A stretch of 64,000 nucleotides of DNA from Hemileia vastatrix (taxonomy: Eukaryota; Basidiomycota; Pucciniomycetes; Pucciniales; Zaghouaniaceae): positions 434,001 through 498,000 of the forward strand of contig JASXTE010000015.1 of the NCBI GenBank assembly GCA_030280995.1, written 5' to 3'. Below, piece after piece: positions 2,716 through 60,299 of this stretch. Numbering within the stretch: position 1 is the stretch's first letter; each line of letters opens with the position of its first letter. Made by a program: the position numbers and the translations under genes. The notes under the pieces are model-generated. The model saw only the letters and a list, made by a program, of their open reading frames with translations, searched no databases and was not told where the DNA came from.

Positions 2716-3767
2716 TTGACCAAGGGAGTTGGAGAAAACCCAGAGAAAAATCCCCTGTCCCTTTAGAAAAATATAAGTGAGTTTTACCTGCTACAGTAAA
2801 TTGGTTCCTGTTGTTTAAAGCCCCTTTTCCAATACACTTGACTGCTTGATGAAACAAGAAAGTAGTCTCCAGACAGACTACCAAACCAAAGAACTGAAAT
2901 GTATACCAATGTCCACACCAGAGAAAGAAATGATACTTGATGTAGGTTGCAAATCCACACAAGAGACTGCAATAACACTTGATATAGCATTCAAGACTAC
3001 ACCAGATAAAACAGTTGCCAAAATTGAGTTAAATGAAGAACTAACCTTGCAACAAACACAGCCAATTGTGGCCAAAAAACAGTGAAAATTGAGTGAGGAA
3101 CAAGTATATCACCTCCGGATGGTTGTATGAAAATTAAAGTTGCCCCAAACTGTCTTATTCACTATATACACACAGACCACTATCTAAGAGCCCATGTACA
3201 CCAACGAATTTGGTGTTTCTGAGTGCCAAATTGCATAAAAGCCCTCTAGAAACGCTTCCCAGCTTTCTAAAACAGAGGCAGGTGATTCGCCCACCTGAGG
3301 CGGCCGGACCACCCTGAAGCCAGAAAACCACCAAAAACCTCCAAAAATACTCAAAATACTTAGAAAAATCTACTAAAACTACTCAAACTTTTAAACACAT
3401 AATTAAGCTATAAAAACATTGTGACATGAAACATATAAAAAATTAGCCCATTCTAATGGTATTAAGCACTTAACCCTAAGACTTAAGGTTAGCCAGTAAA
3501 ATGCAAAAATCAAAATCAAACAGCAATCTTTTAAAATGAAAAATGAGAAATAATCCTTTAAATACTTAGAATATAAAAAATGTCTAAGAGACATAAAAGA
3601 TAGAGAAAGACTGGGGCTATCCAATGGTAATACTCATATTTGCGCAGTCCCAATATTCGCCCAAAAAGTCTAGAAAAAAACCCAACTATTAAACAATGCC
3701 TTTTAAGACATTTCAAAACAACACCAAATAGACCAACAAAGGGCTCTGCCAATGTTGGAACACCACA
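2716..3767 (-). repeat. K 3' LTR, interrupted by G2
   Basis: Read on the minus strand it starts TGTGGTGTTCC at 3767, directly after the polypurine tract GGAGGCAGGATG, so it is the downstream LTR of minus-strand K. The first 330 bases match the plus-oriented LTR at 63688-64000. The end (2716-2850, and around 3210-3320) matches the solo LTR at 37770-38674. The last bases are displaced by G2. Its U3 edge lies 18 bases from the start of an opposite-strand gene, so antisense promoter activity from this LTR is plausible. Confidence 0.85.
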
Positions 3768-3785
3768 TCCTGCCTCCAATAGAGA

Positions 3786-4440
3786 ATGTCCACATTCTCC
3801 TACATCACAACCACCATGTTCAGCTTTCTTTCCAAATCTGCTACTGACATGGGTCCTTGCCAATACTGCATTGACAACAATTTCATCTGTACCATCACAC
3901 CACCAGCTCATCCCTACAGAACATCCTGTGATGCATGTCACTCTAGGAAGAAGACTTGTTTCAGACATGGACCATTTTCCTCTTCAAAATCTTCTCCTCC
4001 TCCACCATCTGATCCACCTTCCACCAGCACCAAAAGATCCATACCATCCATCCTGATCCCCAGACTGTTCAACAAACTACACCCTTCAAAAAAGAGTGCC
4101 AACCCTGCTACAAACACTAGCTCTTCCATTCCTGGTCCTTCTGATGGTAAGCCCAATACTTCTTCATACTGAAACTCAATCTGAAAAATTTCCAGTTCAT
4201 TTCCATCCAGACAGTGATGATGACAATTTGGGAACCATTGAAGAACTCCCACCTAATCCATTGCCCACCATCAAAGAAAAATTTCAACAAAATTCTTCAC
4301 AACAGAAGCATCTAATTCTAAATTACTTCCAATAAACTCCTGCCAGAAATCCACATGAACTTGAAAAAAGGAAGAACCTCATTCACCAGTTCAAAGCCAA
4401 TGCTGAGCATTTTGTTACATCTCTTGATTCTTTTCTGTAA
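3786..4440 (+). CDS. Antisense six-cysteine (Zn-cluster-like) gene K-a in K's 3' region
   Basis: It lies opposite to K's transcription. Exon 1 is 3786-4146; an intron of 49 bases (4147-4195, GTAAGC to TTCCAG) joins in frame to exon 2 at 4196. Residues about 25-60 hold C-x2-C-x6-C-x12-C-x2-C-x6-C with a basic HSRKKT before the last Cys, which is Zn2Cys6-like spacing but with the basic half second. A Ser/Pro-rich linker and an acidic patch (DSDDD) follow. An in-frame TAA at 4333-4335 is followed by 34 open codons with an ELEKRKNLI motif that resembles the tails of the P and H homologues, so the stop is probably a mutation. DNA binding is inferred only. Homologues: 5120, 31287, 37411 and 39811. 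Confidence 0.62.
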
Positions 4441-5119
4441 TTTCTTCTTGCCTGAAAATCTTTATTTAGAAATAAAAAATAAAAAAACTTCTCATTTTAG
4501 AGTCTTGGGGGACTAATCCTCAGTTTTATGTCTTGGGGGACTCAAAAACCCTCAGTTTATAGTCTTGGGGGACTCCAAAACCTGAATTAAAAAGACAGAA
4601 CCAGAGATCAAAACATTAAAGACCAAAGAAACAAACTAATATTCTGGGGTAACTGTTCTACAGAGCAGCCAGCTAATCAGTTACCCCTACACTTGCCTTA
4701 ACAAAACTCAGAGACTCCCCCTTGGGTGCCCTCTGCCAGAATCACACCAACTCCACATTATCAGTTTATAGTCCTGAAGGACTCATCCAACAACCATCCT
4801 CAGTTTAAAGTCTTGGGGGACTATCCACAGCATTCAGTTTAAAGTCTTGATGGACTTACAGATCCACAGTAGTAATAAAAAATAAAAATCTTGAAGTAAT
4901 CTTGAAATAACCAGCCAGTTTTAAGTCTTGGAGGACTTCCATACTTCAGTTTAAAGTCTTGATGGACTACAAACATTTTGCATTTAAAGGCAGAGCCACC
5001 TCCATGCACAGTGCTCCACAGCCAACCTGATGAACTTCCACTCTTTCTTCATTATCTACACATCACTAATGAAATTTTCATTCATCTCTTTTCTCTTCAT
5101 TATTTTTCCTTCACAGATC
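4441..5119 (-). repeat. Array of stem-loop/TTAAACTG motifs in K's 3' region, first block
   Basis: There is no gene on either strand. On K's sense (minus) strand about eight copies of the motif occur (near 4478, 4521, 4553, 4762, 4800, 4838, 4918 and 4945). Each has a stem AGTC/GACT around a six-base loop (CCCCAA, CACCAA-like), then a tail close to TTAAACTG. A separate 42-base hairpin sits inside at 4646-4687. The block lies between two opposite-strand genes and resembles the second block at 7440-7986, as if gene plus array had duplicated. Confidence 0.7.
4646..4687 (-). other. Conserved hairpin, copy K1 (10-bp stem GGGGTAACTG/CAGTTACCCC)
   Basis: Perfect ten-base arms flank a loop of 22 bases containing GAGCAGCCAG. 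The same hairpin recurs at 7544-7585 and 7805-7845 in K, 12502-12542 in M and 29048-29089 in P. In M and P the C:G pair near the stem base is T:A on both sides (GGGGTAATTG / CAATTAC), a compensating change. Function unknown; it may act in RNA processing, packaging or translation of the element transcript. Confidence 0.65.
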
Positions 5120-6250
5120 ATGGCTGAATCCCCAGACTTTGACCCATTGGACCTTCCCTGTTTCACTTCTTCAAAGGACTATACTTGTAAACAGTGCATC
5201 CACATGTGCAGGAATTGTACTTTCACTCTTTCAAATCCTCAGGCCAAATTCTATAACAGAGCCTGTGATTCTTGCAGCTCTAAAAAGAAAAGATGTGACA
5301 GAAACCCCAACTATCCAATACCTCTGCCTTCACCTTCACATAAATATATTTCCAGATCTCCTACCAGGTCACCAGAACTTGGACCTGCTTCCTCTTCTTT
5401 ATCTTCTGCTCCTTCCAGAAGATCACACCGTTCTATTCCCAAAATACTCCCTAAAAGACCTGCTTTATCTTCTCAAGAATCTGATTTTATCTCAGAAAAT
5501 TTGGCTAAATCAGCTTCAAAATCAGCTCCCATTCTGTTAGACCACGTCCAGGCAGCCTGCCCGCCTTTCCGGAAAGCAAAAATCTGGCTCTAAATTCCCA
5601 AATTCAGCCAGATAACAGCCAAAATACACCATTAAACACCAACAACTCTACGCAACCACCTCCTAGCGCTCCCAGAGCAATGCGTACACACAAAATTTCT
5701 TCCTCAGAAAACCCCAATAATTTAAACATCTCTAAAAAGCCTGCCAGAGGACCTTCTGAGAAAACCAGAGCATGCAACACTGGTTCCAAAAAAAAATCTC
5801 CGGTTACTTCAAGAAGAACTAACTACACCTCTCCTCTAGCTGCCATTTATTCCTCTTATGGGTCCCTTTCTTCTAGATATTCATCTAGCAAATCACAATC
5901 AGCTCCCAGGTCACTTCTCCTGATCCTTCCTTCAACAACCCAGGTAATCCACCACCAGTGTTCAAACCAACTGGGCCAAGCAATAATAATATCCACAACA
6001 ACAACAGCAGCCCTGCTGCTCCAACAAAGCCACAGGAACGCCCTTCTTCTCCTTCATCTTCTCAGAACCATTTGGAGAATGATAATGAGAATCCATACCT
6101 CTATCTGGTTTATCCTCCTTCAACATCCATTCAGCTTTCTTCAACAGCTCAAATCCTGGCCACTTACAAATTTGATGATCTCCCAATCTGTAAGTACCAT
6201 ATTAATAAATCCAATTTCTTTAACAGAGAAAAATTACTGATCTAATACTT
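5120..6250 (+). pseudogene. Antisense six-cysteine gene K-b (two frameshifts)
   Basis: A second opposite-strand gene of the same family. From ATG 5120, right after a possible splice acceptor TTCACAG, residues about 23-60 show C-x2-C-x6-C-x15-C-x2-C-x6-C ending CDSCSSKKKRCDRN, very like the basic half of a fungal Zn2Cys6 domain. A Ser/Pro-rich linker follows. The frame shifts near 5540 and near 5905; the three pieces together form one low-complexity Ser/Pro/Asn-rich chain. A GTAAGT to TTAACAG intron candidate lies at about 6190-6227. A piece at 6369-6728 (NELEKNLRKKLLDDHW) could be the C-terminal helical part. Not functional as it stands. Confidence 0.5.
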
Positions 6251-7365
6251 CCATGTAGTTGGAATCATGTCTCCTGAAACTACAATTGGGATTGGTCAAC
6301 CTCTAGAAACTACCTTAACGCTGGATTACGCCAACATGAAACAACACCTAAGCATGATGTGTTAAAACATGCTTAAGGCCTTTGCTCTCAACGGTCCGTT
6401 GAATGAGTTGGAAAAGAATCTGAGGAAAAAGCTCCTTGATGACCACTGGAAAATGTCTAGAATAATCAAGCACACCTTCATACACTCTATCCCCGCTTCT
6501 TTTACTTCTTCCCAAAAATTACCTTCAACTCTGGTCCCTGACCATTACAACCAATATACACTTTCCAGACACCTACACCACAAAGAACACAGTTCTTCCA
6601 CCAATCCTAAAAAATGTAAAAACACCATCATAATCCAGACCAACTGCTGGAGGTTTCTTCTTCCAGACATTAAAATAAACAAGAAAGAAATTAATAAGTC
6701 ACTAAATAGAGATAACAATAATAATTAACAGAAATATATATATATAAATTTGTTTTATTTTTATTCTACTTTATTTTATTTTTATTTTTTTTATTTTTAT
6801 ATATTTTTTTATATTTATTTTAAACTACTAACATACTAAAAAAAAACTTGAAAATAAATAACAAAATTAACCAAAAAATATGAGTGTTGAAAATTTAAAA
6901 TGAAATGAATAATAATAATAACATGAGACAAATAATAGTTACTAATGGTATTCCCCAGACAAATGATGAGTTTATCCCCTGATACCTTACCCACATCCAA
7001 GTGCACTTTGATGTGAATACACTGTTAAATAAAATTTATTTGAATTGAAATAAAGATGAAATAAATTTAAATTGAGAAAATAAAAAGAAAATAGAAAGAA
7101 AATAGCATTGCCTGGCCAATTGATGAGCCTTTTCTAACTAATGCTTTCCCACATCCAGGTGATCCTGATGTGGTGAAACCAAATAATATAATTTTTGATT
7201 TTTCCCTCTTTATATCCTAATAACTCTTATAAAAAAATTAAAAGAAAAAAAAGAAAAAAGAAAATAATCTAAAACTAGCATCTAACACAACCATAGACAC
7301 AAAAATTAAAGAAAAGAAAAAGAAAAAAAAAATCCGGCTCCATAGAAAGTCCAGTCCAAGGAAAT
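6251..7365. other. K 3' region: AT-rich tracts and two near-palindromes
   Basis: There is no supported gene beyond the possible tail at 6369-6728. About 6730-6880 is low-complexity T/A sequence. Two short near-palindromes occur at 6991-7016 and 7149-7173: outer arms CCACATC and GATGTGG enclose AAGTGCACTT in the first and AGGTGATCCT in the second, so the inner arms changed together. Each follows a conserved phrase around TTGATGAG. Counterparts are 12127-12152 in M and 29434-29459 in P. Confidence 0.55.
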
Positions 7366-7421
7366 GATCACTGGGTGGGCTCCCTCCAATAAGTAAGAAT
7401 GATAGGAGGCCACCAGTGATC
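7366..7421 (-). other. Conserved long hairpin, copy in K
   Basis: Arms GATCACTGG-TGG-CTCC and GGAG-CCA-CCAGTGATC pair around a loop of about 17 bases. Counterparts with the same arms and a changed loop are at 12225-12280 (M) and 29307-29362 (P). It lies about 120 bases before the GGGGTAACTG hairpin in K and about 220-280 bases before it in M and P, so order is conserved and spacing is not. Not coding in any of the three. Confidence 0.6.
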
Positions 7422-7979
7422 CCTCACCAAGCTAAATAAACGTAAGAAGCCAGTTTAAAGTCATAGTGGACTTGAAAACTGAATAACAAAAACCAGAACT
7501 AGGATTCAACTAGGACAAAAAAAATACTTGAAACAGACATTATGGGGTAGCTTTTCTACAGAGCAGCCAGCACATCAGTTACCCCCACACTTTCCAAAAC
7601 AAAATCTAGAAGCCCCCCCTGGGTACCTTCTAACAAAAACACAAAATCCAACACATTAAACCAAAACCAATAAGCGTGAAGAGTCTGGCACTTGAAGACC
7701 AAAAGAAGTTCCAGTTTAAAGTCATAGAGGACTAAAAAACTGTGAAGAAAAACCAATACTAGGGTTCAACCAAATTAAGAGAAGGAGTTAGAAGCAGACT
7801 ATCTGGGGTAACTGTTGATAGAGCAGCCAGCCCATCAGTTACCCCCACACTTGCCAAAATAAAATCTAGAATCCCAACACATGGGTACCTTCTAAAAAAA
7901 AGTTTCAAACAAAACAGATGCACAGCATCAACAAAATCCAAAATTAAAGAATGGTCCATAGTTTATCCTCATTGTGGAG
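7422..7979 (-). repeat. Second block of stem-loop motifs and GGGGTAACTG hairpins in K
   Basis: There is no gene. Motif copies sit near 7451, 7712 and 7964 (the last with the CTCC/GAGG-type stem). GGGGTAACTG-type hairpins lie at 7544-7585 (5' arm decayed) and 7805-7845 (arms intact). The two hairpins and their flanks, about 260 bases apart, are a tandem duplication of one unit. Confidence 0.65.
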
Positions 7980-8402
7980 TCAATCTTCTTCACTTCTAGT
8001 GCCTCTAGTATAAAATCTCTTCACCTGATCCACAGCCACTCTCTTCTTTAAGACAGCACCATCTAACTCCTCCAAAACATAGGAGCCTCCAGACACCTGA
8101 GATCTGACTCTGTAAGGTCCATTCCATCTTTCAGAAAACATCTTTCCCCACTGACTCTCCAAACTTCTACTATACACCAAAATCAAACAACCAGGTTTCA
8201 ATGGATTCCTGAGTCTATGAGCCAACTTCTTGTCCCAGTACCTGACTGATTAATTTCTTATCTTTATCATTCTAGAGAATGCCTTCTCTTGACGTTCCTC
8301 TCTACATTTCAACTTTTGAATCCTGGCACAGAGCAACTCTTCTGTTGAGCATATATCATCCCAATCAATTCCAAAATAAGAGACAGTTTCCAAATCCACC
8401 GG
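7980..8402 (-). CDS. pol: K integrase C-terminal part (interrupted by H)
   Basis: The minus strand encodes the integrase tail shared with M, P and H: LVYSRSLESQWGKMF, ERWNGPYRV and VLEELDGAVLKKRVAVDQ. One in-frame stop (8250-8252) separates it from the upstream helix-rich part that starts VDLETVSYFGIDW. The upstream reading frame continues at 57447, where the protein reads AVLP; together with VDLE here this matches the uninterrupted motif in M and P. The break is exactly at the CCGG duplication flanking H. There is no chromodomain. Confidence 0.85.
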
Positions 8403-8886
8403 TGTAGACTGTTCTAAATTACTAAGCAGTAGACACAATGCAAGATGGGTTGGTTCTCCTTTTCAATTTCTAAAATGAAGCGCCTGACACTCTTATTTTC
8501 AAAGACAGCGCAATAATGTGTAACACTAATATTTGATTAGAAAGTTGAAAAGATGAGATGAGTCTTAGAGATCAGGAAAACAAGTATTTCTATCTGGATA
8601 TTTCTATTCTTAATAAGCACTAATATCAACAGCTAATCCCTCTTGAAGCGCTCTCTTTGAATATGCCTTATTATATCAATAAAATAACTATAATAATAGC
8701 TACTTCTACTAAATCTATATATTCTCTCTATTTTGCGCTCTTTCACTATACTATATGAAATACACACACAGACGCACAAATGGTAAAATACTCAGAAATA
8801 TCTTTAATTCACTATTCTATTTTACTTATATATATATTTCTCTTCTGTCATTCTATATATATATTTTTTTCCTTCTCTTTCGAATA
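8403..8886 (-). repeat. H 3' LTR, left piece
   Basis: It matches 56200-56683 of H's intact 5' LTR base by base apart from scattered changes. It ends at GAATA (8882-8886), the duplicated target of the copia insertion; the LTR resumes at 36528. Confidence 0.92.
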
Positions 8887-9336: not shown

Positions 9337-10438
9337 TATGGTAAGGTTAACTCTTACAGTCGCCTTGCTGTAAGCAGAATCCGGAGGAGATGTGTGGATT
9401 TAGCTGAAAACCCCGTCCTTCCAATAAAAATAACAAAAATGGGAATTCTAAATCACTAAGCTAACCAGTCTACTTGTATCTGATTGATAAAAATAATGAA
9501 ACTCTAAAATATTTAACGCTTATTGAGATTTAAATAAAAGTGGCTGTTGAGAAAGAAATACTGATAAAAACAATTAAGGTGTACCAGTGAAAGATCTGAA
9601 AAGATTGACTTTTATGTTTTTATAATAATTTGAATTTTTATGAGACAGCAATAATCAAGTCCCAGTGATGAAGACCTTTTTAAAGATACCCTGTTTGAAG
9701 TGTGATTTAAATTGTTGAGTAGTATTTCTAAAATGTTATATATAAAATATAAAGTTATAAGGGTATTACAATTTATTTAATTTGTTGAGTAATAAAAAAT
9801 GAGACTGTGGTGGTTAAAGATTAAGATGTATGTTTTTTTATGATTGTAAGATGATGCCCAATTTCGAGTCTGAGAGACTGTTAAATATACCTAGTCACGT
9901 GCCTATATTTTCCCCTCCAGAGATCACCCAGAGTTAATCCGGAGCCCGTACGGAGTCGAAGCGGAGTCAATCCGGACTCAATTAGAACCTTTAAAACTAT
10001 AATAAAAAATATAGAAAAATTATACATAATTGAACCATTTCCCTTACATTCAAAACTAATTGTCGTAGCCTGCGCAGCTCTAATCACCCCTTGAAAATTC
10101 ATCAAAGTTAAGTAATTTCTAAAAACGTAAATATTTCTATAAATCTTTAAAATTCATTTAAAAATATAAGAAAAATAGTAAAAATTCTGGGAAAATTTCC
10201 CAAGGTTCTTGAGTGACTCGACTTAATACTTATAAACTCTTCAGACCGTAAAAATAAGTTTTCTCCATAAAATAAATTGTTTTGGCGTAGGCATTCGCTC
10301 TTGACCAATTTCTTCATATTTAAAAATCAAATAAATTAAATAAAACCCTTTTATAAAAAAAATAATAACACCAATCTTGCACACCGTAATAATTCCATTT
10401 ACGTACTTAGGTGCCATACTAAACTTTAGGCTACCACA
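9337..10438 (-). repeat. M 3' LTR
   Basis: 1102 bases, preceded on the sense strand by the polypurine tract GGAGGGAGGA. It differs from the 5' LTR at 19992-21128 by scattered substitutions and lacks short segments near 9940 that are present at about 20600-20660 (repeats of a CGGAGTC unit). Confidence 0.92.
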
Positions 10439-12940
10439 TCCTCCCTCCAATTGAGAATGTCCCCATTCTTAAACCTTTGCATAAGTGGTTGAGCAATTCC
10501 AAAAGAATTATCTTTTCTAATAAAATAATTTGATAAATTTGTTTTAGCTGGTCTTCTTTTAATTCTTTATAATAAAAACGTTGTTTCTTCTTCTCTGGCT
10601 TGATTTAACATAAAATAAAATAAATCTTGTGATGATTCCACTTCTGAGAGCAAGTTTTGAATCCCTTCAGACTCCCATTAACCAGTCTTTATACTGGTCA
10701 CAGCATTGAGAGAGTGGATCTTCCTAATGAGCCGAATACTCCTGATTCCAATCTCATAGGGCCCCCCACTGAGCCGAATTCTATGATTCCAATCTTGCCA
10801 TAAGGTCCTCCAAGCTTCACACCAAAAATGGCCTAACACTGAGGCACTAAAAAAAATCATTCCCTAAAATCCAACTACCATCCTAACTTTTGATTCCTTC
10901 ATCACAATATTCAAACTTTGCTATACAGCAAACCCATAAAATACTTTTTCCAGGCTTCCAATAATAATATTAACTTTAGAACATGTTAACGCGCCACAAA
11001 TTTCACCTAATTAACCATTATGCTTTCCTTAGCATCATCACCACCTAAAATTTTAACCTGCTAAAGCTTATCAGTACCCAATTCCAGAAATGATTGAATA
11101 ACCAGTTTAGAGTCTTAGTGGACAGTGATAAATTAAAAGATTGAATTGAGTTATCCAAACAAGATTGACATTCCAGTTTAAAGTCTTGGTGGACCAAACA
11201 TATAATCGATTGCCAGTTTATAGTCTTGGTTGACCAATGAATGTTGAGTTATTCTTCAGATATTAATTTTCCAGTTTAAAGTCATAGTGGACTAAACAAT
11301 GAATGAACTACCAGTTTAAAGTCATGGTGGACCAAACATTTGATCGTTAAGAAATCCAGTTTAAGGTCATAGTGGACCCAACAGCTTGATAATAGTCCAG
11401 TTTAGGGTCTTGGTGGACCTAACATTTGATTGATAAAAAAAATAAAAAAAATCCGTCTCCAAAAATATCCATAAAATCTTGAACATCATTGAAATTCAGT
11501 TTAAAGTCTTGAAGGACTAATAGCTCCAATATAAAATCTTTAATGACAGTCTAGAAAATTAGCCAGTTTAAAGTCTTGGAGGACTAACAGCTCCAAAATT
11601 TGTATAAAAACCTTAAGGAAAGTCTTGAACTGTAGCCAGTTTAAAGTCTTGGAGGACTAACAGATGTCATGAAGTAAAATCCCATAGGTTTTGAGTTCCC
11701 CTAGACCCTGTTTCCTGTCTAAACTAAATGAATAAAACTAAAAAGAATGAAGACTGAAAAATAAAACTATGAAATATAATAATAATTATAATTTAATTAA
11801 TTAAATTTTTTTTATTTTATTTTATTATTTTATTTTTATTTATTAATTTATTTATTTTATTTATTTATTTTATTATTTATTTTTTTTATTTTTTTATTTT
11901 TTTTTATTTTTATTTTTTTAATTTTAATTTTAATTTTGTTTTTAATTTAAAATAAAAGATTTTTGAAAAGATATTTTTGAAATAAAAGTTAAAACTTAAT
12001 TTTTAAAGAAAGATAAACAATTGTGAAAAGAAAGATAAAAAAAGTAATAATAATAAAAAATTTAAAAAGTAAAATTTGAAAAGATGCCCCCCGGCCATTT
12101 GATGAGCTGTACCCTTGACATCATACCCACATCCAAGTGCAACTTTATGTGGTTACACAATTTTGAGAAATTGAAAAGAAAAGAAAAGAAATAAAAGTTT
12201 TTAGAAGATAATTTTTATAATGATGATCACTGGGTGGGCTCCTTCCAATTTATAAAAATGATTAGAGACCACCAGTGAGCATCACCTTTACAATAATTCA
12301 TAATATATGTTAAAAAAAGAAATCACAATCTAACATAAAAAAATAACAAAAACAAAATAAAATAAAAAGAATCTTGAATCCGGCGTTGAGAGCGGTGTCT
12401 CTTGATTCGTTCCAGTTTATAGTCTTAGTGAACTTCCTATAATTAAAAGACCAAGCCATGATTCAACTAGAAACAGGGAAAATTTTGGAAACAAACATTA
12501 TGGGGTAATTGTGTATAGAGCAACCAGCCCATCAATTACTCCCACACTTGCCAATATTAAATTAAGAAGGTTCCCCTGTGAACAATTCTTCCAATAATTT
12601 TTTTTTAAAATTTTCCAACACTATCTTCACCCATATTTTAAGAATTTTAATTTTTGAAAATTTCAAAGAAGGTTTTCTTGCATTTCGTTAAGTTTCATCA
12701 CAGTTTCGTCGCCCATATGCTGTGTAACGATAGTAAAGTATTTTGATAAAAAAGAAGATAGTTTATCCTTGTTGCGGAGGTCAATAAAATTTGATAAATT
12801 TCATAGTTTATCCTCATTGTGGAGGAAGCCTTAAAAGTTTGTTAATATTATAGTTTATCCTCATTGCGGAGGGTAATAAAATTTTCGTTGATATCATAGT
12901 TTATCCTCATTGCGGAGGAATCCATGAAATTTCATAAATG
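10439..12940 (-). other. M 3' region: stem-loop array and conserved hairpins, no gene
   Basis: I see no gene. Compared with P, about 750 bases are missing next to the LTR (junction near 10490), removing nearly all of the antisense six-cysteine gene; only a trace of its tail region remains at 10490-10560. Stem-loop/TTAAACTG motifs lie near 11103, 11173, 11212, 11273, 11311, 11355, 11396, 11494, 11563, 11636, 12411, 12768, 12806, 12851 and 12897. About 11770-12000 is A/T low complexity. The near-palindrome (12127-12152), long hairpin (12225-12280) and GGGGTAATTG hairpin (12502-12542) are conserved with K and P. Confidence 0.7.
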
Positions 12941-14494
12941 TCATAGTTTATCCTCATTGCGGAGAAAGACTTCGGCACTACTGGTGCCTCTAGGAGAGAA
13001 CCGTTTCACTTGATCGGCCGCTACCCTCTTCTTCAATACTACTCCATCCAACTCTTCTAGCACATATGAACTGCCAGAAACTTGATCCTTAATTTTATAC
13101 GGTCCATTCCACCTATCTGCAAACATCTTTCCCCATTGACTCTCTAGACTTCTATTATACACCAGGACCATATCACCTGGGTTCAAAGCTTTATACGGTC
13201 CATTCCACCTATCTGCAAACATTTTTCCCCACTGACTTTCCAAACTCCTATTATACACCAATACCATATCACCTGGGTTCAAAGGTTTCCTTAATCGATG
13301 TGCCAACCGCTCATCCCAATATCTAACTGATTGATTTTGGATCTTCATCATCCGCAAATATGCCTTTTCTAAATATTCTTCTTTCTTTAATAGCTACATC
13401 ATTCTTGCACACAATAATTCATCAGTAGTTTTGACCGTGTCCCAGTCAACTCCAAGATATGATTCAGCTTCTAAATCAACCGGTAAAACTGCTTTCTGTC
13501 CAAAAACAAGTTCATAAGGTGAAAATCCGGTTGTCCTTTTGGCAGTGATTTGATCAGCAAATAATACTAAAGGTAAATAGTGCCTCCACTTTTTGGCACT
13601 TGTCCCACACATTTTAACTAAAGCATCCTTAATAACTTGATGCCCTCTTTCAACCATGCCTTCAGCTTCAGGATAATATGGGGTTGCTACCCTAACCTTT
13701 GATCTAACTTTCAATACGGCCTCTTTAAACTCTGTCCCAAATTCAGGACCTCCATCCACTGTCACCAACTTCATCACCCCATACCTATATAACTAATTAT
13801 TTAACAAAAATTCTGCCACATTTTTGGCAGTTAAATTAATAAGAGGCGCTGCCTCTACCCAACCAGATAAATCATCTCTGGACACAATTAAATATTTATA
13901 CCGTCCCTCTTTTATATGAACGGCATCTAAACTAACTCTCCAAAAGAGCGTATATTCACCTGTCACGCGTCCAGGTTCTTTTGGCCTTAAATAACTTCGT
14001 CTTTGACATTCTTCGCATGACTGAACCCACTGTTTAACAGCCATCTTCATGCCAGGCCACCAAAATCAATCAGAAATTCTTCTAAACGTTTCTCCAATGC
14101 CTCTATGCCCGAGATCTTCATGCAGTGATTTCAAAACTAATTCTTGCCCTTTCTGTTGAGTTATAACTACTTGAGGATTTGGATACCTTCTCCTCATTAA
14201 AAGTCGACCAGATAGGTAAAACGTAGATGACTTCCTCTTGATAGCCACCCATTCATCGTCTTCACAATCTTCTGGCCTCTCTAAGGTCAACAAATATTTG
14301 ACTAACAAAAAATAAAAACCAGTCTGACCCCAGACTTCATCTTGAAAATCGATTGATATAACATCAATAGGGACTTCTCTATCACCAATATCACCTGCAC
14401 ATGAATGAGCCAATAATCGTTGACCCCTAAATAAATCTTTAATCAAGCTATGTTGACATTTTTCTTCTGAACCTTTGGATCCTTTGTAAACCAT
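12941..14494 (-). pseudogene. pol: M integrase (HHCC, DDE core, C-terminal domain), broken
   Basis: It inserts the cDNA. On the minus strand, in order: zinc-binding HEDLGHRG ... SCEECQRRSY, core with SLDAVHIKEG (first Asp), VDGG (second Asp) and PEAEGMVERGHQ (Glu), then the tail LVYNRSLESQWGKMF. Single stops break it near 14050-14066, 13778-13793 and 13390. The tail contains a 32-codon tandem duplication (13101-13292) whose copies differ at silent sites. No chromodomain. A stem-loop motif lies at its 3' end (12944). Confidence 0.85.
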
Positions 14495-14506: not shown

Positions 14507-16429
14507 TTATTTCTCTTTATCCACCTTTTTATTTAAATTCTCTAATTCTCCAACATATACACCATTCCTTAACTTACTACTATCCCACACTACCAATCCA
14601 TCTTCCTCTACATACACCACATCTTCTTCTACCTCCTTTCTACCGAATTTATCTACACCTTTTCCAACACCTTTATTAACATAAAAACTATTTTCCAGTT
14701 TATCCTCTTGGTGGAGGTCATCATCACCATAATCTAAACACAATAATACTGCCAGTTTAACCTCATGGGAGAGGTATGGAAAGTCTTCAGCTCCTTTAGT
14801 GCTGGCTTTGATAATAGGTATATCTTCATCGAACTCTTCTGAGTCTGAATCTTCTTCAGTTGGTGGTCTCCTTGATAAACCATCTGGCATAGTAAAAGTT
14901 TTGCCAGGCTTATGAACTAAATCAAATGAAAAATGTTGAATAAAAGCTACCCATCTCGTCATGGGTGCATTCGGTAAACTTGGGGAATTAATCATCTGGA
15001 TTAACGATTTCGCATCCACTTGCAACTCAAAATGTTGCCCCCACAAAATATGCTGAAGTTTCTTCAGTATTTTTGCCACACCACGTAATTCTAATTTTGA
15101 TTGAGAATATCTTAATTCAACCTCAGTAAATACTACAGATTCATACCTAACTGGCCTGATGTAACCAGCTTTATCCATCTGAGACAAAACCGCCCCAGCT
15201 GAAACCTGACTTGAATCAACTGCTAAATAAATTCTGCCAGCTTCTTTTCCATAATCCAACTTGTGCAGGACTAAATCCTTCCCCACAACCTCCTTCTCAC
15301 ACTCTTCATCCCACTCCAAGTCTGCATCCTTTCTCGTTAACCGTCTCAATGGAGCTTCCAATGAAGAAAAGTCCTTGATAGAAATTCTAACATATACGCA
15401 AACGCCTAAAAACCCTCTAACTTTGGTCGTATTCTTGGGTCTTGGCCAGGACTGAATTTTGTTAACTTTCTTCTTGGACATAATCCTACCCTCTCTACAT
15501 ACCACATGGCCTAATATTTCTAAGGCTGGCACACAACATGAAAATTTTGAACCTGAAATAGTTAAACCAGCCTCTTCAATTCGAAACAAGATTCTTTCTA
15601 AAGTAATTGCAAACTCCCAAATGAATTTGCGTATACCGGAATTCTCTTCCAACACCTGGTTATCATAGTCGGTTGTTGGTCCCTTAATTCCTCCATCATC
15701 TATAAAGATTCCAGCATATTGTGGAATTTTGTCTTGAAGGATCCAAGCCATCTGAGCTTGATAAACTGCAACCAAATTTGTTGCTCCTTGAGGTAATCTT
15801 GTTAATTGTAAACGTCCTAGTGGCGTATTGAATGTAGTGAGAGGCCTTGAGTCTGGATGTAACTCTCTCTCATCATATCCACCCATAATATCTCCCAAAC
15901 CATAACACACTCTCCCTGCAAATGCTTCAACAACCTCCTCAGCACTAGGCGGTATCCCAGCATCCTTTATTGTAACCCTATTTAATTCCCTAAGATCATG
16001 AACAACTCTAAGCTTGCCATTTGGTTTCTTAATACAAAATACCGGACTAGAATAACTTGACGTTGGTTGCTCATACAGTCCAGTGCGTATCCGTTCTCTG
16101 ACAACTTTAATATAGGCTTCTTTTAATGCAGCCGGAATAGGAATTGGTTTCTGCTGCCACGGTTCATGACATACCACAGGAATCTTGTAAGGCTCCCCAT
16201 AGGAATGCTTCAACACACCCCTCTCCTCTTCTACAAAAGCAATGGCCTTCTCTCGCTTGACCATCACATCCAACAACAACTTCTTCTCTTCTCCAGACAA
16301 CCAACCATCAGGTCCAAAATTAACAACACCCAGTCTCTCAAAAGTGATTCTTGACGTCTCAAAAAATTCAGGCAGATTCTTTACCAAGGGACTTTCATAA
16401 GGATCTCTTGATAACCTTGGTCTTCTCAA
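14507..16429 (-). CDS. pol: M reverse transcriptase and RNase H
   Basis: A 640-codon open frame. RT: KLRVVHDLRELN (about residue 140), YGLGDIMGGYDE with the first catalytic Asp (about 180), LTRLPQGATN, and FIDDGGIKG (about 242-250), the F-x-DD active site. RNase H follows: LAVDSSQVSAGAV, then LELRGVAKILKK and QVDAKSLIQMI, ending HKPGKTFTMPDGLSRR. Next to P it lacks about eight residues before GKDLVLHK. The C-terminal part (about 540-640) is an acidic linker in which two stem-loop motifs (14697 and 14752) are translated. Confidence 0.9.
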   Translation of the reverse strand: MRRPRLSRDPYESPLVKNLPEFFETSRITFERLGVVNFGPDGWLSGEEKKLLLDVMVKREKAIAFVEEERGVLKHSYGEPYKIPVVCHEPWQQKPIPIPAALKEAYIKVVRERIRTGLYEQPTSSYSSPVFCIKKPNGKLRVVHDLRELNRVTIKDAGIPPSAEEVVEAFAGRVCYGLGDIMGGYDERELHPDSRPLTTFNTPLGRLQLTRLPQGATNLVAVYQAQMAWILQDKIPQYAGIFIDDGGIKGPTTDYDNQVLEENSGIRKFIWEFAITLERILFRIEEAGLTISGSKFSCCVPALEILGHVVCREGRIMSKKKVNKIQSWPRPKNTTKVRGFLGVCVYVRISIKDFSSLEAPLRRLTRKDADLEWDEECEKEVVGKDLVLHKLDYGKEAGRIYLAVDSSQVSAGAVLSQMDKAGYIRPVRYESVVFTEVELRYSQSKLELRGVAKILKKLQHILWGQHFELQVDAKSLIQMINSPSLPNAPMTRWVAFIQHFSFDLVHKPGKTFTMPDGLSRRPPTEEDSDSEEFDEDIPIIKASTKGAEDFPYLSHEVKLAVLLCLDYGDDDLHQEDKLENSFYVNKGVGKGVDKFGRKEVEEDVVYVEEDGLVVWDSSKLRNGVYVGELENLNKKVDKEK

Positions 16430-16468
16430 GGGTGGATTTAATTTGGCAGGTAGCAGTTCATTAATAGG

Positions 16469-16963
16469 TCAAAATTTATTTGCTACTTTCTTATATTTGG
16501 CTGCGTCCACATATAAATAAACTTGCGGTAAAACATTTACTTTTGTTTTGCCATTAAAAATTTCATCAATTAAATCTTCTTCACCATCACAATCGGAATA
16601 AGAAAAATTAGAAAAATATTTTATTTCATTTTTAAATTTTACCCTTTTCTCCTTTCCCTCGTCTAATTTATAAACAGATTTTCCAACACCTTTGCTTCCC
16701 TTATCCAACAGTAAATCACCCGTAAATATAGTTGGCAGTTTAACCTCTTGCTGGAGAACTGGAATTAAATTTTCACAAAAATTATTTTTTTGTGTTTTAA
16801 TTATACCGAGATTTTTTATTGGATTTTGATAAGATTTTTTCAGTTCACCCTCTTGCTGGAGGTCCAAAATAGAAGGAGATACTTGCAGTTTAGCCTCTTG
16901 CTGGAGGTCCAAAATAGAAGGAGATACTTGCGGTTTAACCTCTTGCTGGAGGTCATAAAACAT
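16469..16963 (-). CDS. M pre-RT linker carrying stem-loop repeats
   Basis: An open frame of 164 codons just before RT. Residues 1-45 are three near-repeats of DLQQEVKL-type sequence, which is simply the translated stem-loop motif (16931, 16885, 16839; a fourth at 16736). The rest is Lys/Glu-rich and ends QVYLYVDAAKYKKVANKF, matching P's 24544-25296. A separating stop precedes RT (about 16466). I know no family for it; the RNA motif, not the peptide, seems to drive its conservation. Confidence 0.6.
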   Translation of the reverse strand: MFYDLQQEVKPQVSPSILDLQQEAKLQVSPSILDLQQEGELKKSYQNPIKNLGIIKTQKNNFCENLIPVLQQEVKLPTIFTGDLLLDKGSKGVGKSVYKLDEGKEKRVKFKNEIKYFSNFSYSDCDGEEDLIDEIFNGKTKVNVLPQVYLYVDAAKYKKVANKF

Positions 16964-19991: not shown

Positions 19992-21128
19992 TATGGTAAG
20001 GTAAACTCTTACAGTCGCCTTGATGTAAGCAGAATCCGGAGGAGATGTGTGGATTTAGCTGAAAACCCCGTCCTTCTAATAAAAATCACAAAAATGGGAA
20101 TTCTAAATCACTAAGCTAACCAGTCTACTTGGATCTGATTGATAAAAATAATGAAACTCTAAAATATTTAACGCTTATTTAGATTTAAATAAAAGTGGCT
20201 TTTGAGAAAGAAATACTGATAACAACAATTAAGGTGTACCAGTGAAAGATCTGAAAAGATTGACTTTTATGTTTTTATAATAATTTGAATTTTTATGAGA
20301 CAGCAATAATCAAGTCCCAGTGATGAAGACCTTTCTAAAGATACCCTGTTTGAAGTGTGATTTAAATTGTTGAGTAGTATTTCTAAAATGTTATATATAA
20401 AATATAAAGTTATAAGGGTATTACAATTTATTTAATTTGTTGAGTAATAAAAAATGAGACCGTGGTGGTTAAAGATTAAGCTGTATGCTTTTTAATGATT
20501 GTAAGATGATTCCCAATTTCGAGTCTGAGAGACTCTTAAGTATACCTAGTCACGTGCCTAAGTTTTCCCCTCCAGAGCTCACCCAGAGTTAATCTGGAGC
20601 CCGTATGGAGCTCGTACAGAGTCCATACGGAGTCGAAGTGGAGTCCAAAGGAAGTCCGTCTGGACTCAATTAGAACCTTTAAAACTATAATAAAAAATCT
20701 AGAAAAATTACACACAATAGTAACACTTCCCCTTTACATTTCGAGCTATTTTTCGTAGCCTGCGCAGCTCTAATCATCCCATGAAAATTCATCAAAGTTA
20801 AGTAATTTCTAAAAACGTAAATATTTCTATAAATCTTTAAAATTCATTTAAAAATATAAGAAAAATAGTAAAAATTCTGGGAAAATTTCCCAAGGTTCTT
20901 GAGTGACTCGACTTGATACTTATAAATTCTTCAGACCGTAAAAATAAGTTTTCTCTGTAAAATAAATTGTTTTGGCGTAGTCATTCGCTCTTGACCGATT
21001 TCTTCATATTTAAAACTCAAATAAATTAAATAAAACCCTTTTATAAAAAAAATAATAAAACCAATCTTGCAAGCCGTAATAATTCCATTTACGTACTTAG
21101 GTGCCATACTAAACTTTAGGCTACCACA
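19992..21128 (-). repeat. M 5' LTR
   Basis: 1137 bases, followed on the sense strand by the primer-binding site. Flanked on the right by ACGT. The U3 part has a cluster of CGGAGTC-like repeats at about 20600-20665. Confidence 0.92.
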
Positions 21129-22062: not shown

Positions 22063-23141
22063 TGTGGTAGCCTAAAGTTTAGTATGGCACCTAAGTACGT
22101 AAATGGAGTTATTACGGCGTGCAAGATTGGTGTTATTATTTTATAAAAGGGTTTTATTAAATTTATTTGAGTCATAAATATAAAGAAATTTGGTTAAAAG
22201 CAAATGCCTACACAAAATCAATTTATTTTACGGAGAAAACTTATTTTTATAGTCTTAAAAATATATAAGTATCAAGTCGAGTCACTCAAGAACCTTGGGA
22301 AATTTTCCCAGAATTTTTACTATTTTTCTTATATTTTTAAATGAATTTTAAAGATTTATAGAAATATTTACGTTTTTAGAAATTACTTAACTTTGATGAA
22401 TTTTCACGGGATGATTAGAGCTACGCAGGCTACAAAAATTAGTTTGAAATGTAAAGGGGAAGTGGCTCTATCATGTGTAATTTTTCTAGATTTTTTGTTA
22501 TAGTTTTAAAGGTTCTAATTGAGTCCGGACGGACTCTGTTTGGACTCTGCTTTGACTCCATACAGGCTCTGGAGGGGAAAACTTAGGCACATGACAAGGA
22601 ATACTTAAGCGCCTCTCAAACTCGAAATTGAGAGGGGGGGATAGATCATACAGCTTAATCATTAACCACCACGGTCTTATTTTTTATTACTCAACAAATT
22701 AAATAAATTTGTAATACCCTTATAACTTTAATTTTATTTATAACATTTTAGAAATACTACTGAACAATTTAAATCACACTTCATACAGGGTATCTTTAAA
22801 AAGGTCTTCATCGCTGGGACTTGATTATTGCTGTCTCATAAAAACTCAAATTATAATAAAAACATAAAAGTCAATCTTTACAGATCTTTCACTGGTACAC
22901 CTTAATTGTTGTTATCAGTATTTCTTTCTCAACAGCCACTTTTACTTAAATCTCAATAAGTGTTAATTATTTTAGAGTTTCATTATTTTTATCAATCAGA
23001 TCCAAGTAGAATGGATAGCTTAGTGATTTAGAATTCCCATTTTGTTATTTTTATTGGAAGGACGGGGTTTTCAGCTAAATCCACACATCTCCACCGGATT
23101 CTGCTTACAGCAAGGCAACTGTAAGAGTTTACCTTACCATA
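22063..23141 (+). repeat. P 5' LTR
   Basis: 1079 bases, TGTGGTAG...TTACCATA. Compared with the 3' LTR it lacks about 35 bases of the CGTACGGACTC-type repeats (near 22560). Followed by GT and the primer-binding site. Confidence 0.92.
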
Positions 23142-24487: not shown

Positions 24488-24543
24488 TTCCTCCGAAATG
24501 AGGATAAACTACCTAAACTCAGCTGAAATTTTTTTTTATCGTT

Positions 24544-25296
24544 ATGTATTCAATTTATTCAGGATTCAAATTATTATGGATGCCCTCATTTTTTGGGGTA
24601 GCAGGGGCTGATCACTCTAATGTTGTAATCTCTCCTCAGGATGAGATCCCGGATTGCAATAGGTCAGCTCACTTGGAGATAATTCTAGTGGATTCTCAAT
24701 TATTTTCTGTTGATATTTCTTTTGAGTGCGAATACGTTATGGACTTTTCTATATGTTTATTGGATTTGCCCTGTTTTTCTATTAAATTTAAAAATGGTGA
24801 AAAAGGCAAATTGGGCCAAATTAGGTTGGATAAAAATTGGAAGGGTATGTTTTATTACCTCCAGCAAGAGGTTAAACTGCAAGTATCTCCTTCTATTATG
24901 GACCTCCAGCAAGAGGGTAAACTGCAAAAATCACATCAAAATCCAATAAAAAATCTCAGTATAATTAAAACTCAAAAAAATAATTTTTGTGAAAATTCAA
25001 TTCCGGTCCTCCAGCAAGAGGTTAAACTGCCAACTTTCTTTACGGGTGATTTACTGTTGAATAAGGGAAGCAAAGGTGTTGGAAAATCTGTTTATAAATT
25101 AGACGAGGGAAAGGAGAAAAGGGTAAAATTTAAAAATGAAATAAAATATTTTTCTAATTTTTCTTATTCTGATTCTGATGGTGAAGAAGATTTAATTGAT
25201 GAAATTTTTAATGGCGAAACAAAAGTAAATGTTTTACCTCAAGTTTATTTAGATGTGGACGCAGCCAAATATAAGAAAGTAGCAAATAAATTTTGA
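24544..25296 (+). CDS. P pre-RT linker carrying stem-loop repeats
   Basis: An open frame of 250 codons through the conserved inter-ORF block (24582-24705) into the linker equivalent to M's 16469-16963. Stem-loop motifs at 24858, 24903 and 25008 are translated as LQQEVKL, LQQEGKL and LQQEVKL; one more precedes the ORF at 24490. It ends DAAKYKKVANKF. That this block is open here but closed in M and K suggests the first third is not protein coding. Confidence 0.5.
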   Translation: MYSIYSGFKLLWMPSFFGVAGADHSNVVISPQDEIPDCNRSAHLEIILVDSQLFSVDISFECEYVMDFSICLLDLPCFSIKFKNGEKGKLGQIRLDKNWKGMFYYLQQEVKLQVSPSIMDLQQEGKLQKSHQNPIKNLSIIKTQKNNFCENSIPVLQQEVKLPTFFTGDLLLNKGSKGVGKSVYKLDEGKEKRVKFKNEIKYFSNFSYSDSDGEEDLIDEIFNGETKVNVLPQVYLDVDAAKYKKVANKF

Positions 25297-25853
25297 CCTA
25301 TTAATGAACTGCTACCTGCTGAATTAAATCCACCCTTGAGAAGACCAAGGTTATCAAGAGATCCTTATGAAAGCCCCTTGGAAAGAATCCACCTGAATTT
25401 TCTGAGACGTCAAGAATCACTTTTGAGAGACTGGGTGTTGTTAATTTTTGACCTGATGGTTGGTTGTCTGGAGAAGAGAAGAAGTTGTTGTTGGATGTGA
25501 TGGTCAAGCGAGAGAAGGCCATTGCTTTTGTAGAAGAGGAGAGGGGTGTGTTGAAGCATTCCTATGGGGAGCCTTACAAGATTCCTGTGGTATGTCATGA
25601 ACCGTAGCAGCAGAAACCAATTCCTATTCCGGCTGCATTAAAAGAAGCCTATATTGAAGTTGTCAGAGAACGGATACGCACTGGACTGTATGAGCAACCA
25701 ACGTCAAGTTATTCTAGTCCGGTAATTTGAATCAAGAAACCAAATGGCAAGCTTAGAGTTGTTCATGATCTTAGGGAATTAAATAGGGTTACAATAAAGG
25801 ATTCTGGGATTCCACCTAGTGCTGAAGAGTTTGTTTAAGCGTTTGCAGGGAGA
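25297..25853 (+). pseudogene. pol: P reverse transcriptase N-terminus with stops
   Basis: Colinear with residues 1-165 of M's RT ORF (RRPRLSRDPYESPL, VVNF-PDGWLSGEEKKLLLDV, KLRVVHDLRELNRV). Stops replace residues in NF*PDGW, HEP*QQKP (Trp to TAG), PVI*IKK and FV*AFAG, and there is a shift near 25380. So P cannot make full RT although the downstream part is open. Confidence 0.8.
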
Positions 25854-27980: not shown

Positions 27981-28003
27981 ATAATTGGGTATATAGGTAA
28001 GGG

Positions 28004-28744
28004 GTGATGAAGTTGGTAACGGTAGATGGAGGTCCTAAATTTGGGACAGAGTTTAAAGAGGCCGTATTGAAAGTTGGATCAAAGGTTAGGGTAGCAACCC
28101 CATATTATCCTGAAGCTGAAGGCATGGTTGAAACAGGGAATCAAGTTATTAAGGATGCTTTAGTTAAATTGTGTGGGACAAGTGCCGAAAAGTGGAGGCA
28201 CTATTTACCTTTTGTTTTATTTGCTGATCAAATCCCTGCCAAAAAGACGACCGGATTTTCACCTTATGAACTTGTTTTTGGACAGAAAGCAGTTTTACCG
28301 GTTGATTTAGAAGCTGAATCATATTTTGGAGCTGGCTGGGACACGGTCAAAACTACTGAAGAATTATTGTGTGCAAGAATGATGCAGCTAGAAAAGAAAG
28401 AAGAATATTTAGAAAAGGCATATTACCGGATGATGAAGATCAGAAACCAATCAGTTAGATATTGGGATGAGTGGTTGGCACATCGATTAAGGAAACCTTT
28501 GAACCCAGGTGATATGGTATTGGTGTATAATAGGAGTTTGGAAAGTCAGTGGGGAAAAATGTTTGCAGATAGGTGGAATGGACCGTATAAAGTTAATGAG
28601 AAAGTTTCTGGCGGTTCATATGTGCTAGAAGAGTTGGATGGAGTAGTATTGAAGAAGAGGGTAGTGGCCAATGAAGTGAAACGGTTCTATCCTAGAGGCA
28701 CCAGGAGTGCCGAAGTATACCTCCGCAACGAGCATAAACTATGA
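28004..28744 (+). CDS. pol: P integrase, core end and C-terminal domain
   Basis: VDGGPKFGTEF (second Asp), PEAEGMVETGNQ (Glu), KKTTGFSPYELVFGQKAVLPVDLE, RLRKPLNPGDMVLVYNRSLE and VLEELDGVVLKKRV. This is the uninterrupted version of the site where H entered K (between AVLP and VDLE) and where G entered H (at GDMVLVY). It ends RSAEVYLRNEHKL, itself encoded by a stem-loop motif (28720). No chromodomain. Confidence 0.88.
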   Translation: MMKLVTVDGGPKFGTEFKEAVLKVGSKVRVATPYYPEAEGMVETGNQVIKDALVKLCGTSAEKWRHYLPFVLFADQIPAKKTTGFSPYELVFGQKAVLPVDLEAESYFGAGWDTVKTTEELLCARMMQLEKKEEYLEKAYYRMMKIRNQSVRYWDEWLAHRLRKPLNPGDMVLVYNRSLESQWGKMFADRWNGPYKVNEKVSGGSYVLEELDGVVLKKRVVANEVKRFYPRGTRSAEVYLRNEHKL

Positions 28745-31286: not shown

Positions 31287-31979
31287 TTAGAAAAGATAAT
31301 TTCTTTGAAATTGTTCAACATCATTATCAAAGCTTTGCATTAAAATTCTTCTTTTCATGAGGTCTTCATGGTTATTAGCTGGAGTTTCTTGAATATAGGC
31401 CAGCAGTTTTCGTTTCAACTCTTTAGTAAAGTCAAGAAAAAGATAGCGATGAAAATTTGGATAATGATTGATATAGTCTGTCTTCACTCTACCAACATCA
31501 TCAGTGTTGGTTATTTCGACAGCTAGAAGTTCAAATATGTTATTAAGTCATAGGTTTAGTCAATTTTGATTAAAAGTTTTTTTTTTTGTAAGATAATAGG
31601 GTCTTACAATTAGAGCCAGGAAACATAGTCTCAGCAAAGTTGGTTGGGGGCACTGGCATTATAGGATTAGGATCTTGTGAAGGCAAAATTAGGCCGGGAT
31701 CTGCTGATGAAGATTGAACTTTTGAAGCTGTTTTTGATCTTATTCATTTTAAGAAGACAGGAATTTTTGATCGTTTTTAGAAGTTGAGGGATCAGGGAGA
31801 GCTGCTGGTCCTAAATATACATTTGTTTTAGAAGGAACTATTGGCCGGTTACATTTGTCTTTTTTCACACAGAATAAGTTGCAAGCTGTCCTGCCAGGAA
31901 GATTAGGGTTGGACATTAAACAAGGTACCTGGTATCAAGCGCAGAGTTCACATGGAGCGACAAGTTCTTTGAAAGACAT
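31287..31979 (-). pseudogene. Antisense six-cysteine gene P-a with intron
   Basis: Opposite to P. Exon 1 runs 31979-31608 and exon 2 31522-31287; the 85-base intron (31607-31523, GTAAGA to TTCTAG) joins in frame. Exon 1 encodes C-x2-C-x6-C-x12-C-x3-C-x5-C (PCELC ... ACNLFCVKKDKC) and a Ser/Pro-rich linker; it has a stop inside the first x6 and another break near 31749. Exon 2 is open for 77 codons and ends NNHEDLMKRRILMQSFDN, resembling the K-a tail. The start lies 123 bases from the LTR edge. Function unknown. Confidence 0.62.
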
Positions 31980-37291: not shown

Positions 37292-37410
37292 TCCTCCCTC
37301 TACTCGTGACTGTCCCCAGGAGCCCATAAATACCTGCGTCTCACAGCGTTTTCTTCCTCCATCTTCCGTCTTCTTCTCTTTTTATTTGTCATCCTTTTTT
37401 TTTTCTTATA

Positions 37411-42634: not shown

Positions 42635-42646
42635 CTCCCTCACCCC
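42635..42646 (-). promoter_or_regulatory. G polypurine tract
   Basis: Sense GGGGTGAGGGAG directly before the LTR, following a run of T. It serves as plus-strand primer. The rest of 42647-42793 is AT-rich 3' untranslated sequence. Confidence 0.85.
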
Positions 42647-60290: not shown

Positions 60291-60299
60291 AAGTAGGAT

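Follow-up and report, generated by a model that had tools for sequence, protein, structure and literature searches.

Antisense genes with a putatively permuted zinc cluster in Ty3/Gypsy-type elements of the rust fungus Hemileia vastatrix

An antisense gene of the Boty element, brtn, was reportedly described by Zhao in 2011. As the sources describe it, brtn is a gene antisense to gag-pol in a long terminal repeat (LTR) element of the fungus Botrytis cinerea (PMC8365987, PMC7264820, PMC4227169). Plant Gypsy elements carry antisense open reading frames (aORFs), such as Grande gene23, RIRE2, Retand TRP28, and PvRetro13, between pol and the 3' LTR; DNA binding or nuclear location has been reported or proposed for some of them, and roughly half of recent Retand elements have tandem repeats at the aORF region (excerpts of PMC7264820 and PMC11963269). 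HBZ of human T-cell leukaemia virus type 1 (HTLV-1) is named among antisense retroelement proteins (excerpt of PMC11963269), and VANC21 of VANDAL21 is an element-encoded protein with proven binding to DNA, whose element contains same-oriented motif arrays (excerpt of PMC5735166). Here, we analysed a 64,000-nucleotide stretch of Hemileia vastatrix DNA (contig JASXTE010000015.1, bases 434001-498000; assembly GCA_030280995.1, 747.6 Mb in 791 contigs), referred to below as the window (36% GC). Three of its elements, K, H, and P, belong to one Ty3/Gypsy-type clade and bear five antisense genes, K-a, K-b, H-a, H-b, and P-a. Comparisons of copies support these genes, less clearly K-b, being protein-coding and under purifying selection, and profile matches indicate that their shared domain has a circularly permuted Zn2Cys6 motif, with the Cys4-5-6 half first and the basic Cys1-2-3 half second.

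All five genes were located on the strand opposite to gag-pol, between the integrase and the 3' LTR of K, H, or P; in orientation and location, they correspond to antisense aORFs between pol and the 3' LTR (aORF-3R). An earlier note on this DNA had listed antisense frames with a six-cysteine motif in these three elements, and we found them at the places, on the strand, and in the interval it gave. In strand and position, the genes resemble the plant Gypsy aORFs as the sources portray them, and Retand also has repeats there; the plant aORFs differ in their TRP28 or SMC-like domains, where a domain is named, and in their plant hosts. Boty brtn, as described, is likewise an extra antisense gene of a fungal LTR element. 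HTLV-1 is a retrovirus and its HBZ is a bZIP protein; HBZ, an antisense nuclear protein of a retroelement, resembles the proteins studied here, for which a nuclear location is predicted. The earlier note knew of no described counterpart. This does not hold for the antisense position, which is already known from Boty brtn, Retand, and Grande, whereas a permuted zinc cluster in that position appears to be new: among the open-licence papers listed, as assessed from their titles and the opening lines of their abstracts, none described a Zn2Cys6-like or permuted antisense retroelement protein. Neither "antisense" nor "zinc" occurred in the main text of a report on rust transposons (PMC12210899).

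The genes and a TATA-like sequence beside H-a were modelled at the following window positions:

3816-4440, plus strand: K-a; exon 1 3816-4146, intron 4147-4195 (GT..AG), exon 2 4196-4440 with the C-terminal segment
3858-3959, plus strand: permuted six-cysteine (C6) domain of K-a, within exon 1
5120-6600 (end approximate), plus strand: K-b; the C6 exon begins at 5120 and holds the domain (5186-5296), a Ser/Pro-rich part extends to about 6189, and an intron (6190-6258) precedes the last exon, which ends near 6600
31287-31979, minus strand: P-a; exon 1 31979-31608, intron 31607-31523, exon 2 31522-31287
37326-37332, plus strand: TATA-like ATAAATA between the H 3' LTR and the H-a ATG, shared by all 11 aligned H rows
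37411-39360, plus strand: H-a; exon 1 37411-37620, intron 37621-37689, exon 2 37690-38835, intron 38836-38898, exon 3 38899-39360
39814-40612, plus strand: H-b; exon 1 39814-40259, intron 40260-40312, exon 2 40313-40612

The K-a and K-b limits given in the earlier note were revised. A K-a start at 3816 is more likely than one at 3786 because the latter falls in an LTR-adjoining segment common to P, and K-b probably extends to about 6600 rather than ending at 6250. The introns measured 49 (K-a), 69 and 63 (first and second of H-a), 53 (H-b), 69 (K-b), and 85 bases (P-a; 84 in the further copy L016); the lengths of 49, 69, and 85 bases given in the earlier note thereby apply to K-a, the first H-a intron, and P-a. 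The encoded proteins comprise about 190-300 residues. No second C6 frame was seen in P or O, a fourth element of the clade.

All five gene copies in the window are decayed. K-a has an in-frame stop at 4333-4335; K-b has a frame change near 5560 and, relative to other copies, stops and a shift near 5900; P-a has a frameshift and stops. H-a has in-frame stops in exon 3, an inserted sequence of roughly 0.9 kb (about 37770-38673) that splits exon 2 and at one end resembles the end of the K LTR, and a second intron donor that reads AT, compared to GTAAGT or GTGAGT in six of 10 other copies. In H-b, the frame is shifted and one cysteine is missing.

In relatives, the domain reads C-x2-C-x6/7-C...C-x2-C-x6-C and is accompanied by a Ser/Pro linker; the x2/3 and x5/6 spacings of the earlier note are products of decay. 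A six-frame scan of the window found a strict form of the motif twice (K-a and K-b); 60 Markov shuffles contained none. Its six cysteines were invariant across 19 aligned domains, most of which were chosen for matching the motif. When full proteins were submitted, Zn_clus (PF00172; gathering cut-off 21 bits) was the best or sole Pfam family for all five: 24.0 bits for P-a, 21.2 for H-a, 19.2 (copy L015) or 21.4 (window exon) for K-a, 14.8 for K-b, and 12.1 for H-b.

The profile was matched in reverse order, as the earlier note had proposed in describing swapped halves with the basic half second. P-a, K-a, and H-a matched Zn_clus in two stretches. The best stretch, the one displayed by the Pfam tool, placed the N-terminal half of K-a and H-b on profile positions 18-37; for P-a, H-a, and K-b it placed the later half on positions 1-18. 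Once the halves were exchanged, each of the five gave a single continuous match (34.4 bits for P-a, 21.5 for K-a, 31.7 for H-a, 17.6 for H-b, and 15.9 for K-b). The same lengths left unexchanged scored 27.0 (P-a), 21.7 (K-a), 27.4 (H-a), and 17.6 (H-b), each in two stretches, and 14.4 (K-b) in one, so that the exchange gained bits for P-a, H-a, and K-b. The main point of the permutation argument is the order of the halves rather than the score: in PF00172, the basic Cys1-2-3 half precedes Cys4-5-6, and in these proteins it follows. Gal4-type Zn2Cys6 regulators share with them both half-motifs, the basic run before Cys3, and the Zn_clus match; the genes described here differ in being small, in their reversed halves, and in being encoded by retrotransposons. 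In a comparison with PDB sequences, the second half of P-a exon 1 gave weak alignments with the first halves of PPR1 (E = 0.0068) and GAL4 (E = 0.34). Since the known cluster has pseudo-twofold symmetry, a swap of halves is structurally plausible.

Relatedness among the genes was assessed from the letters of single copies, with 1000 shuffles per pair. All 10 domain pairs had scores reached by at most eight shuffles, and seven of the 10 by none or one; K-a and P-a matched over nearly their full length (E about 2e-16). For the C-terminal segments, the score was reached by zero shuffles for K-a/P-a and P-a/H-a and by one for K-a/H-a. These comparisons indicate that the domain is common to all five genes and, in agreement with the earlier note, that K-a, P-a, and H-a also share the C-terminal segment. 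Searches of a protein database returned 22 candidates for P-a and 2302 for H-a, none at E <= 10, a result of little weight as the database is possibly poor in fungal proteins. Within the same genome, 13 canonical PF00172 matches were found among the 150 scored of 3258 candidates. Twelve of these were located below position 111,000, on contigs without any listed K, H, or P place; these contigs are perhaps contaminating or unplaced.

Further copies were sought by matching the gene itself (K-b, H, or P-a), and 40 candidates per search were scored out of 4207, 6586, and 1893 first-look candidates, respectively, so totals are lower bounds. The genome holds relatives of K-a, P-a, H-a, and H-b that are uninterrupted, in line with the intact copies called for by the earlier note; no uninterrupted K-b was seen among the fetched K places. 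Eighteen places around the best K-b matches were fetched, and 15 of them were aligned with the window (16 rows), L012, L021, and L022 being excluded for matched spans longer than 3,300 bases. K-a was uninterrupted with all six cysteines in four of the 15 other copies (L013, L015, L026, and L027) and uninterrupted with the first cysteine lost in two more (L017 and L023); the intron began with GT and ended with AG in 16 of 16 rows. The P-a set comprised 10 rows (the window, L016, and eight fetched places). Its splice sites were intact in all 10, and L016, L042, and L049 were uninterrupted with six cysteines, whereas L047 was uninterrupted with loss of cluster cysteine. At a codon reading CGA in L016, the window and four copies (L043, L044, L045, and L048) had a stop, which suggests either C-to-T mutation at CpG or descent from a shared source that was already broken; L046 had a later stop. 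In the H set (10 copies, L032-L041, and the window), H-a was open through all exons in L033 and L040, and H-b through both exons in L040, as judged by eye. A further degraded C6-like frame (C-x2-C-x6-C ... C-x2-C), also read by eye, was observed at L024:717-824 on the minus strand, followed by P/O-LTR-like sequence.

We estimated ratios of nonsynonymous to synonymous substitution rates (dN/dS) by pooled Nei-Gojobori counts with a codon bootstrap, in which pairs are non-independent. For H, eight rows were compared to the three rows of an 81-83% group, that is, between H subfamilies. The ratio was 0.28 (0.21-0.38) for H-a exons 1 and 2, 0.29 for H-a exon 3, 0.34 (0.23-0.54) for H-b exon 1, and 0.47 (0.26-0.90) for H-b exon 2. 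Stops were rare in these frames (9 in 1638 codons of H-a exons 1 and 2, 5 in 1622 of H-b exon 1, and 4 in 1078 of H-b exon 2) compared to the other five frames (47-132, 44-194, and 54-117, respectively). Ratios in the other H frames ranged from 0.41 to 1.79. The antisense frame with the same third position was low too (0.41, 0.44, and 0.53), as expected for a shadow of the true frame, and in H-b exon 2, another antisense frame was about as low (0.49) as the true one. P-a had a ratio of nonsynonymous to synonymous differences per site (pN/pS) of 0.48, compared to 0.60 and 1.54 in the other forward frames, and 7 stops in 2019 codons as against 130 and 214 in 2009. For K-a, dN/dS was 0.61 (0.46-0.85) and that of its shadow frame 0.68. 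The K integrase had a ratio of 0.76 (0.58-1.00) and 20 stops in 3507 codons over 13 K rows; K-a thus showed no sign of weaker constraint than the integrase, with overlapping intervals and row sets that are not identical. The codon bias asked about in the earlier note was present in H-a, H-b, and K-a; in K-b, the interval spans 1 (0.79, 0.56-1.20). Coding status of K-b, unproven by its own ratios, would rest on domain homology to H-b and K-a and on its open frames.

Several observations weigh against this account. Exchanging the halves gains nothing for K-a or H-b, and H-b and K-b stay under the Pfam cut-off in either half order; the bare K-b domain scored 14.9 bits with a RING-like family compared to 14.4 with Zn_clus, both below cut-off. 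The C-terminal segment of H-b shows no clear relationship to the other segments, its pair scores being reached by 12, 37, and 431 of 1000 shuffles. K-b has two other frames with lower ratios and one with fewer stops. The first K-a cysteine differs in 27% of the 15 copies (the other five in 0-7%, with a non-cysteine mean of 15%), and two of the six K-b motif cysteines differ in 27% and 20% (mean of the others, 17%). Element O is without most of the P-a gene. An AlphaFold model of the domain was poor (mean predicted local distance difference test score, pLDDT, 51.5; helices at 9-16 and 32-39) and is evidence neither way.

Self-comparison of the window revealed the nested LTR elements K, H, O, P, and Q:

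2716-3767, minus strand: K 3' LTR, truncated at 2715 by Q
57446-63688, minus strand: gag-pol side of K, split from 2716-8403 by the H insertion
36523-37291, minus strand: piece of the H 3' LTR adjoining H-a; its other piece is at 8403-8886
56200-57446: H 5' LTR
22065-23141 and 32105-33215: P LTRs
32105-33215, plus strand: the P 3' LTR, adjoining P-a
9337-10438 and 19992-21128: O LTRs; O and P are relatives in opposite orientation
41453-42635 and 49106-50287: Q LTRs; a second, partial Q lies at the window start

Reverse transcriptase, RNase H, or integrase domains were detected by Pfam in the submitted frames of O, P, H, K, and Q. Between families K, H, O, and P, pol DNA identity was 68-73%, with a 94% match of O to P; gag identity was lower than that of pol (64-66%, O against K). 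Q, which had no comparable pol match to K, H, O, or P in the self-comparison, is a different Gypsy element nested inside H. The H insertion site lies in the K integrase, as both K parts (2716-8403 and 57446-63688) meet the O integrase at 13479-13484. The two parts are contiguous in copy L015, so the K genes too sit between integrase and 3' LTR, opposite to pol; further along, the pol of L015 is itself interrupted by a Q-type insert. A K-type LTR starting at 63686 is inverted relative to the K 3' LTR and carries an insert, which raised doubt about the orientation of K. A misread orientation was dropped, given that the antisense genes and pol are contiguous in L015 and that a gag-leader is followed by a normally oriented LTR in L019. 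Followed from 63686-64000 into L010, the inverted K-type LTR with its insert of about 1.4 kb occupies the expected place of the K 5' LTR.

The earlier note had the antisense transcripts start from the back of the 3' LTR. The position of the genes beside the LTR stands (the probable K-a ATG is 49 bases from the K LTR), whereas in H, the conserved ATAAATA raises the possibility of a core promoter that is not part of the LTR. Antisense introns do not act as introns in the genomic RNA, which would let them persist through retrotransposition. GGACT/AGTCC did not occur in the LTRs clearly more often than expected by chance. At 32559-32632, the AT-rich P LTR contains tandem TCCGTACGGAC-like units that are rich in CCG/CGG and resemble the half-site triplets of Zn2Cys6 factors.

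A 22-bp motif, CAGTTTAAAGTC-N6-GACT, recurs in the interval separating K-a from K-b, as well as in O and P. At up to three mismatches, it had 35 matches in the window compared to 0.72 expected, on the strand of the antisense genes. The motif and its more general form, AGTTTAN-arm-N6-arm', were located as follows:

4493-4968, plus strand: repeat array between K-a and K-b, eight matches with up to three mismatches; two more at 7451 and 7712
11103-12920, plus strand: dyad/hairpin repeat in O, with arms AGTC, GGTC, and CCTC
28785-30706, minus strand: dyad/hairpin repeat in P
4493-4968, 7451-7733, 11103-12920, 14697-16909, 24510-30706, 41197, and 51573: places of AGTTTAN-arm-N6-arm'

In the K, O, P, and H pieces, the gene strand has 58 AGTTTA occurrences, 35 of which were followed by one base, a four-base arm, six bases, and the complementary arm; on the other strand of these pieces, none of 36 was, and in Q, none of three on each strand. 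The geometry was specific: 35 instances had offset 1 and loop 6, 12 had offset 0 and loop 8 (nested pairing), and other combinations had at most three. The arm pairs were AGTC/GACT (14), CCTC/GAGG (14), GGTC/GACC (6), and TGTC/GACA (1). When instances were picked regardless of the outer two arm bases (inner TC and GA being fixed by the pattern), arms were complementary in 35 of 46 window instances and in 139 of 184 when window and loci were taken together. Among 92 distinct sequences, 55 were complementary, a number reached in none of 2000 permutations (maximum 35), with independence overstated since copies are related; mismatched forms such as AGTC..GACC also occurred. A simple protein half-site AGTC/GACT, considered as an explanation of the repeat, was weakened by the other arm sequences. 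In 18 K copies, 181 matches (up to two mismatches) had the gene orientation compared to seven in the opposite one, five of the seven in L016, which also bears an oppositely oriented P-type gene. The fixed bases of the repeat varied by 0.038 and 0.028 in K copies, compared to 0.073 in the spacer and 0.109 in the flanks. The repeat sits in noncoding arrays and also within gag-pol frames. RNA folding of the K array showed no stability beyond shuffles on either strand (z = +2.0 and +0.9), and Rfam had no match in the window, so folding energy gives an RNA function no support. H, with two genes, holds two of the 35 perfect window instances. The antisense proteins may target the repeat, or it may be an independent feature of the elements.

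With moderate confidence, we favour the reading that these are antisense, spliced, and selected accessory genes with a permuted zinc cluster, whose proteins bind nucleic acid and act on their own element. The Ty3/Gypsy-type clade (K, H, and P, with O having mostly lost the gene) bears one or two such genes beside the 3' LTR, which would be transcribed independently, directed away from the LTR, and then spliced. The proteins would most likely be nuclear and bind nucleic acid via the zinc cluster, and may act on the transcription or silencing state of the element, as HBZ or VANC do for theirs. The sequences show where the genes lie and on which strand, that splice sites are kept, that selection is purifying, and that the two Zn_clus halves are matched in exchanged order; we infer transcription, zinc, nucleic-acid binding, and regulation of the element. 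More speculatively, and with low confidence, the accessory genes could form a self-recognition system, in which the permuted-cluster protein recognises the co-oriented AGTTTAN-arm-N6-arm' repeat in its own DNA or RNA and thereby sustains expression against silencing or controls RNA export or packaging. VANC21 is not, to our knowledge, a zinc-cluster protein. VANDAL21, an Arabidopsis DNA transposon, is alike in its same-oriented arrays, with binding proven there (PMC5735166). That parallel, together with arrays that adjoin the genes, their 181 to 7 orientation in K copies, and motif positions varying by 0.03-0.04 compared to 0.07 in the spacer and 0.11 in the flank, speaks for an anti-silencing protein that would bind the arrays in its own element DNA and lift silencing; this is doubtful, as the H genes have no array and covarying arms are unexpected for a simple fixed half-site. 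An equally doubtful possibility is that the proteins act on RNA or the particle (Rev-like export, packaging, or nuclear import), with an RNA-binding or structural cluster and the hairpins as RNA target. The covarying arms (AGTC/GACT, GGTC/GACC, CCTC/GAGG, and TGTC/GACA) and the single orientation of the repeat, also within gag-pol frames, would suit a feature of the full-length RNA, whereas the K array folds no better than shuffles on either strand, H has few instances despite its two genes, and canonical Zn2Cys6 proteins bind DNA.

Two further explanations are disfavoured. The antisense transcripts themselves might count, through double-stranded RNA or interference, with the protein irrelevant; antisense RNA alone has been proposed as a possible role in some elements (excerpt of PMC7264820), yet the selection acting on codons in H-a, H-b, and K-a and the retention of their frames make this very improbable. 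Even harder to credit is a Zn2Cys6 gene that the element captured from its host recently and that serves no function there. Zn2Cys6 is a typical domain of fungal hosts, but the gene is present in several diverged elements (68-73% pol DNA identity), is under selection between H subfamilies, and has its halves in permuted order.

Antisense genes of LTR elements have long been puzzling because they are rarely similar to anything known. For the accessory genes favoured here, the predicted protein has a recognisable, though permuted, DNA-binding module and appears to be under selection. The genes are paired in two elements (K and H), and in K and P, they lie near a repeated dyad that is a possible target. 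A short oligonucleotide and a small protein would thus be enough to test what antisense retroelement genes do, and a regulator domain common in fungi would gain a permuted order.

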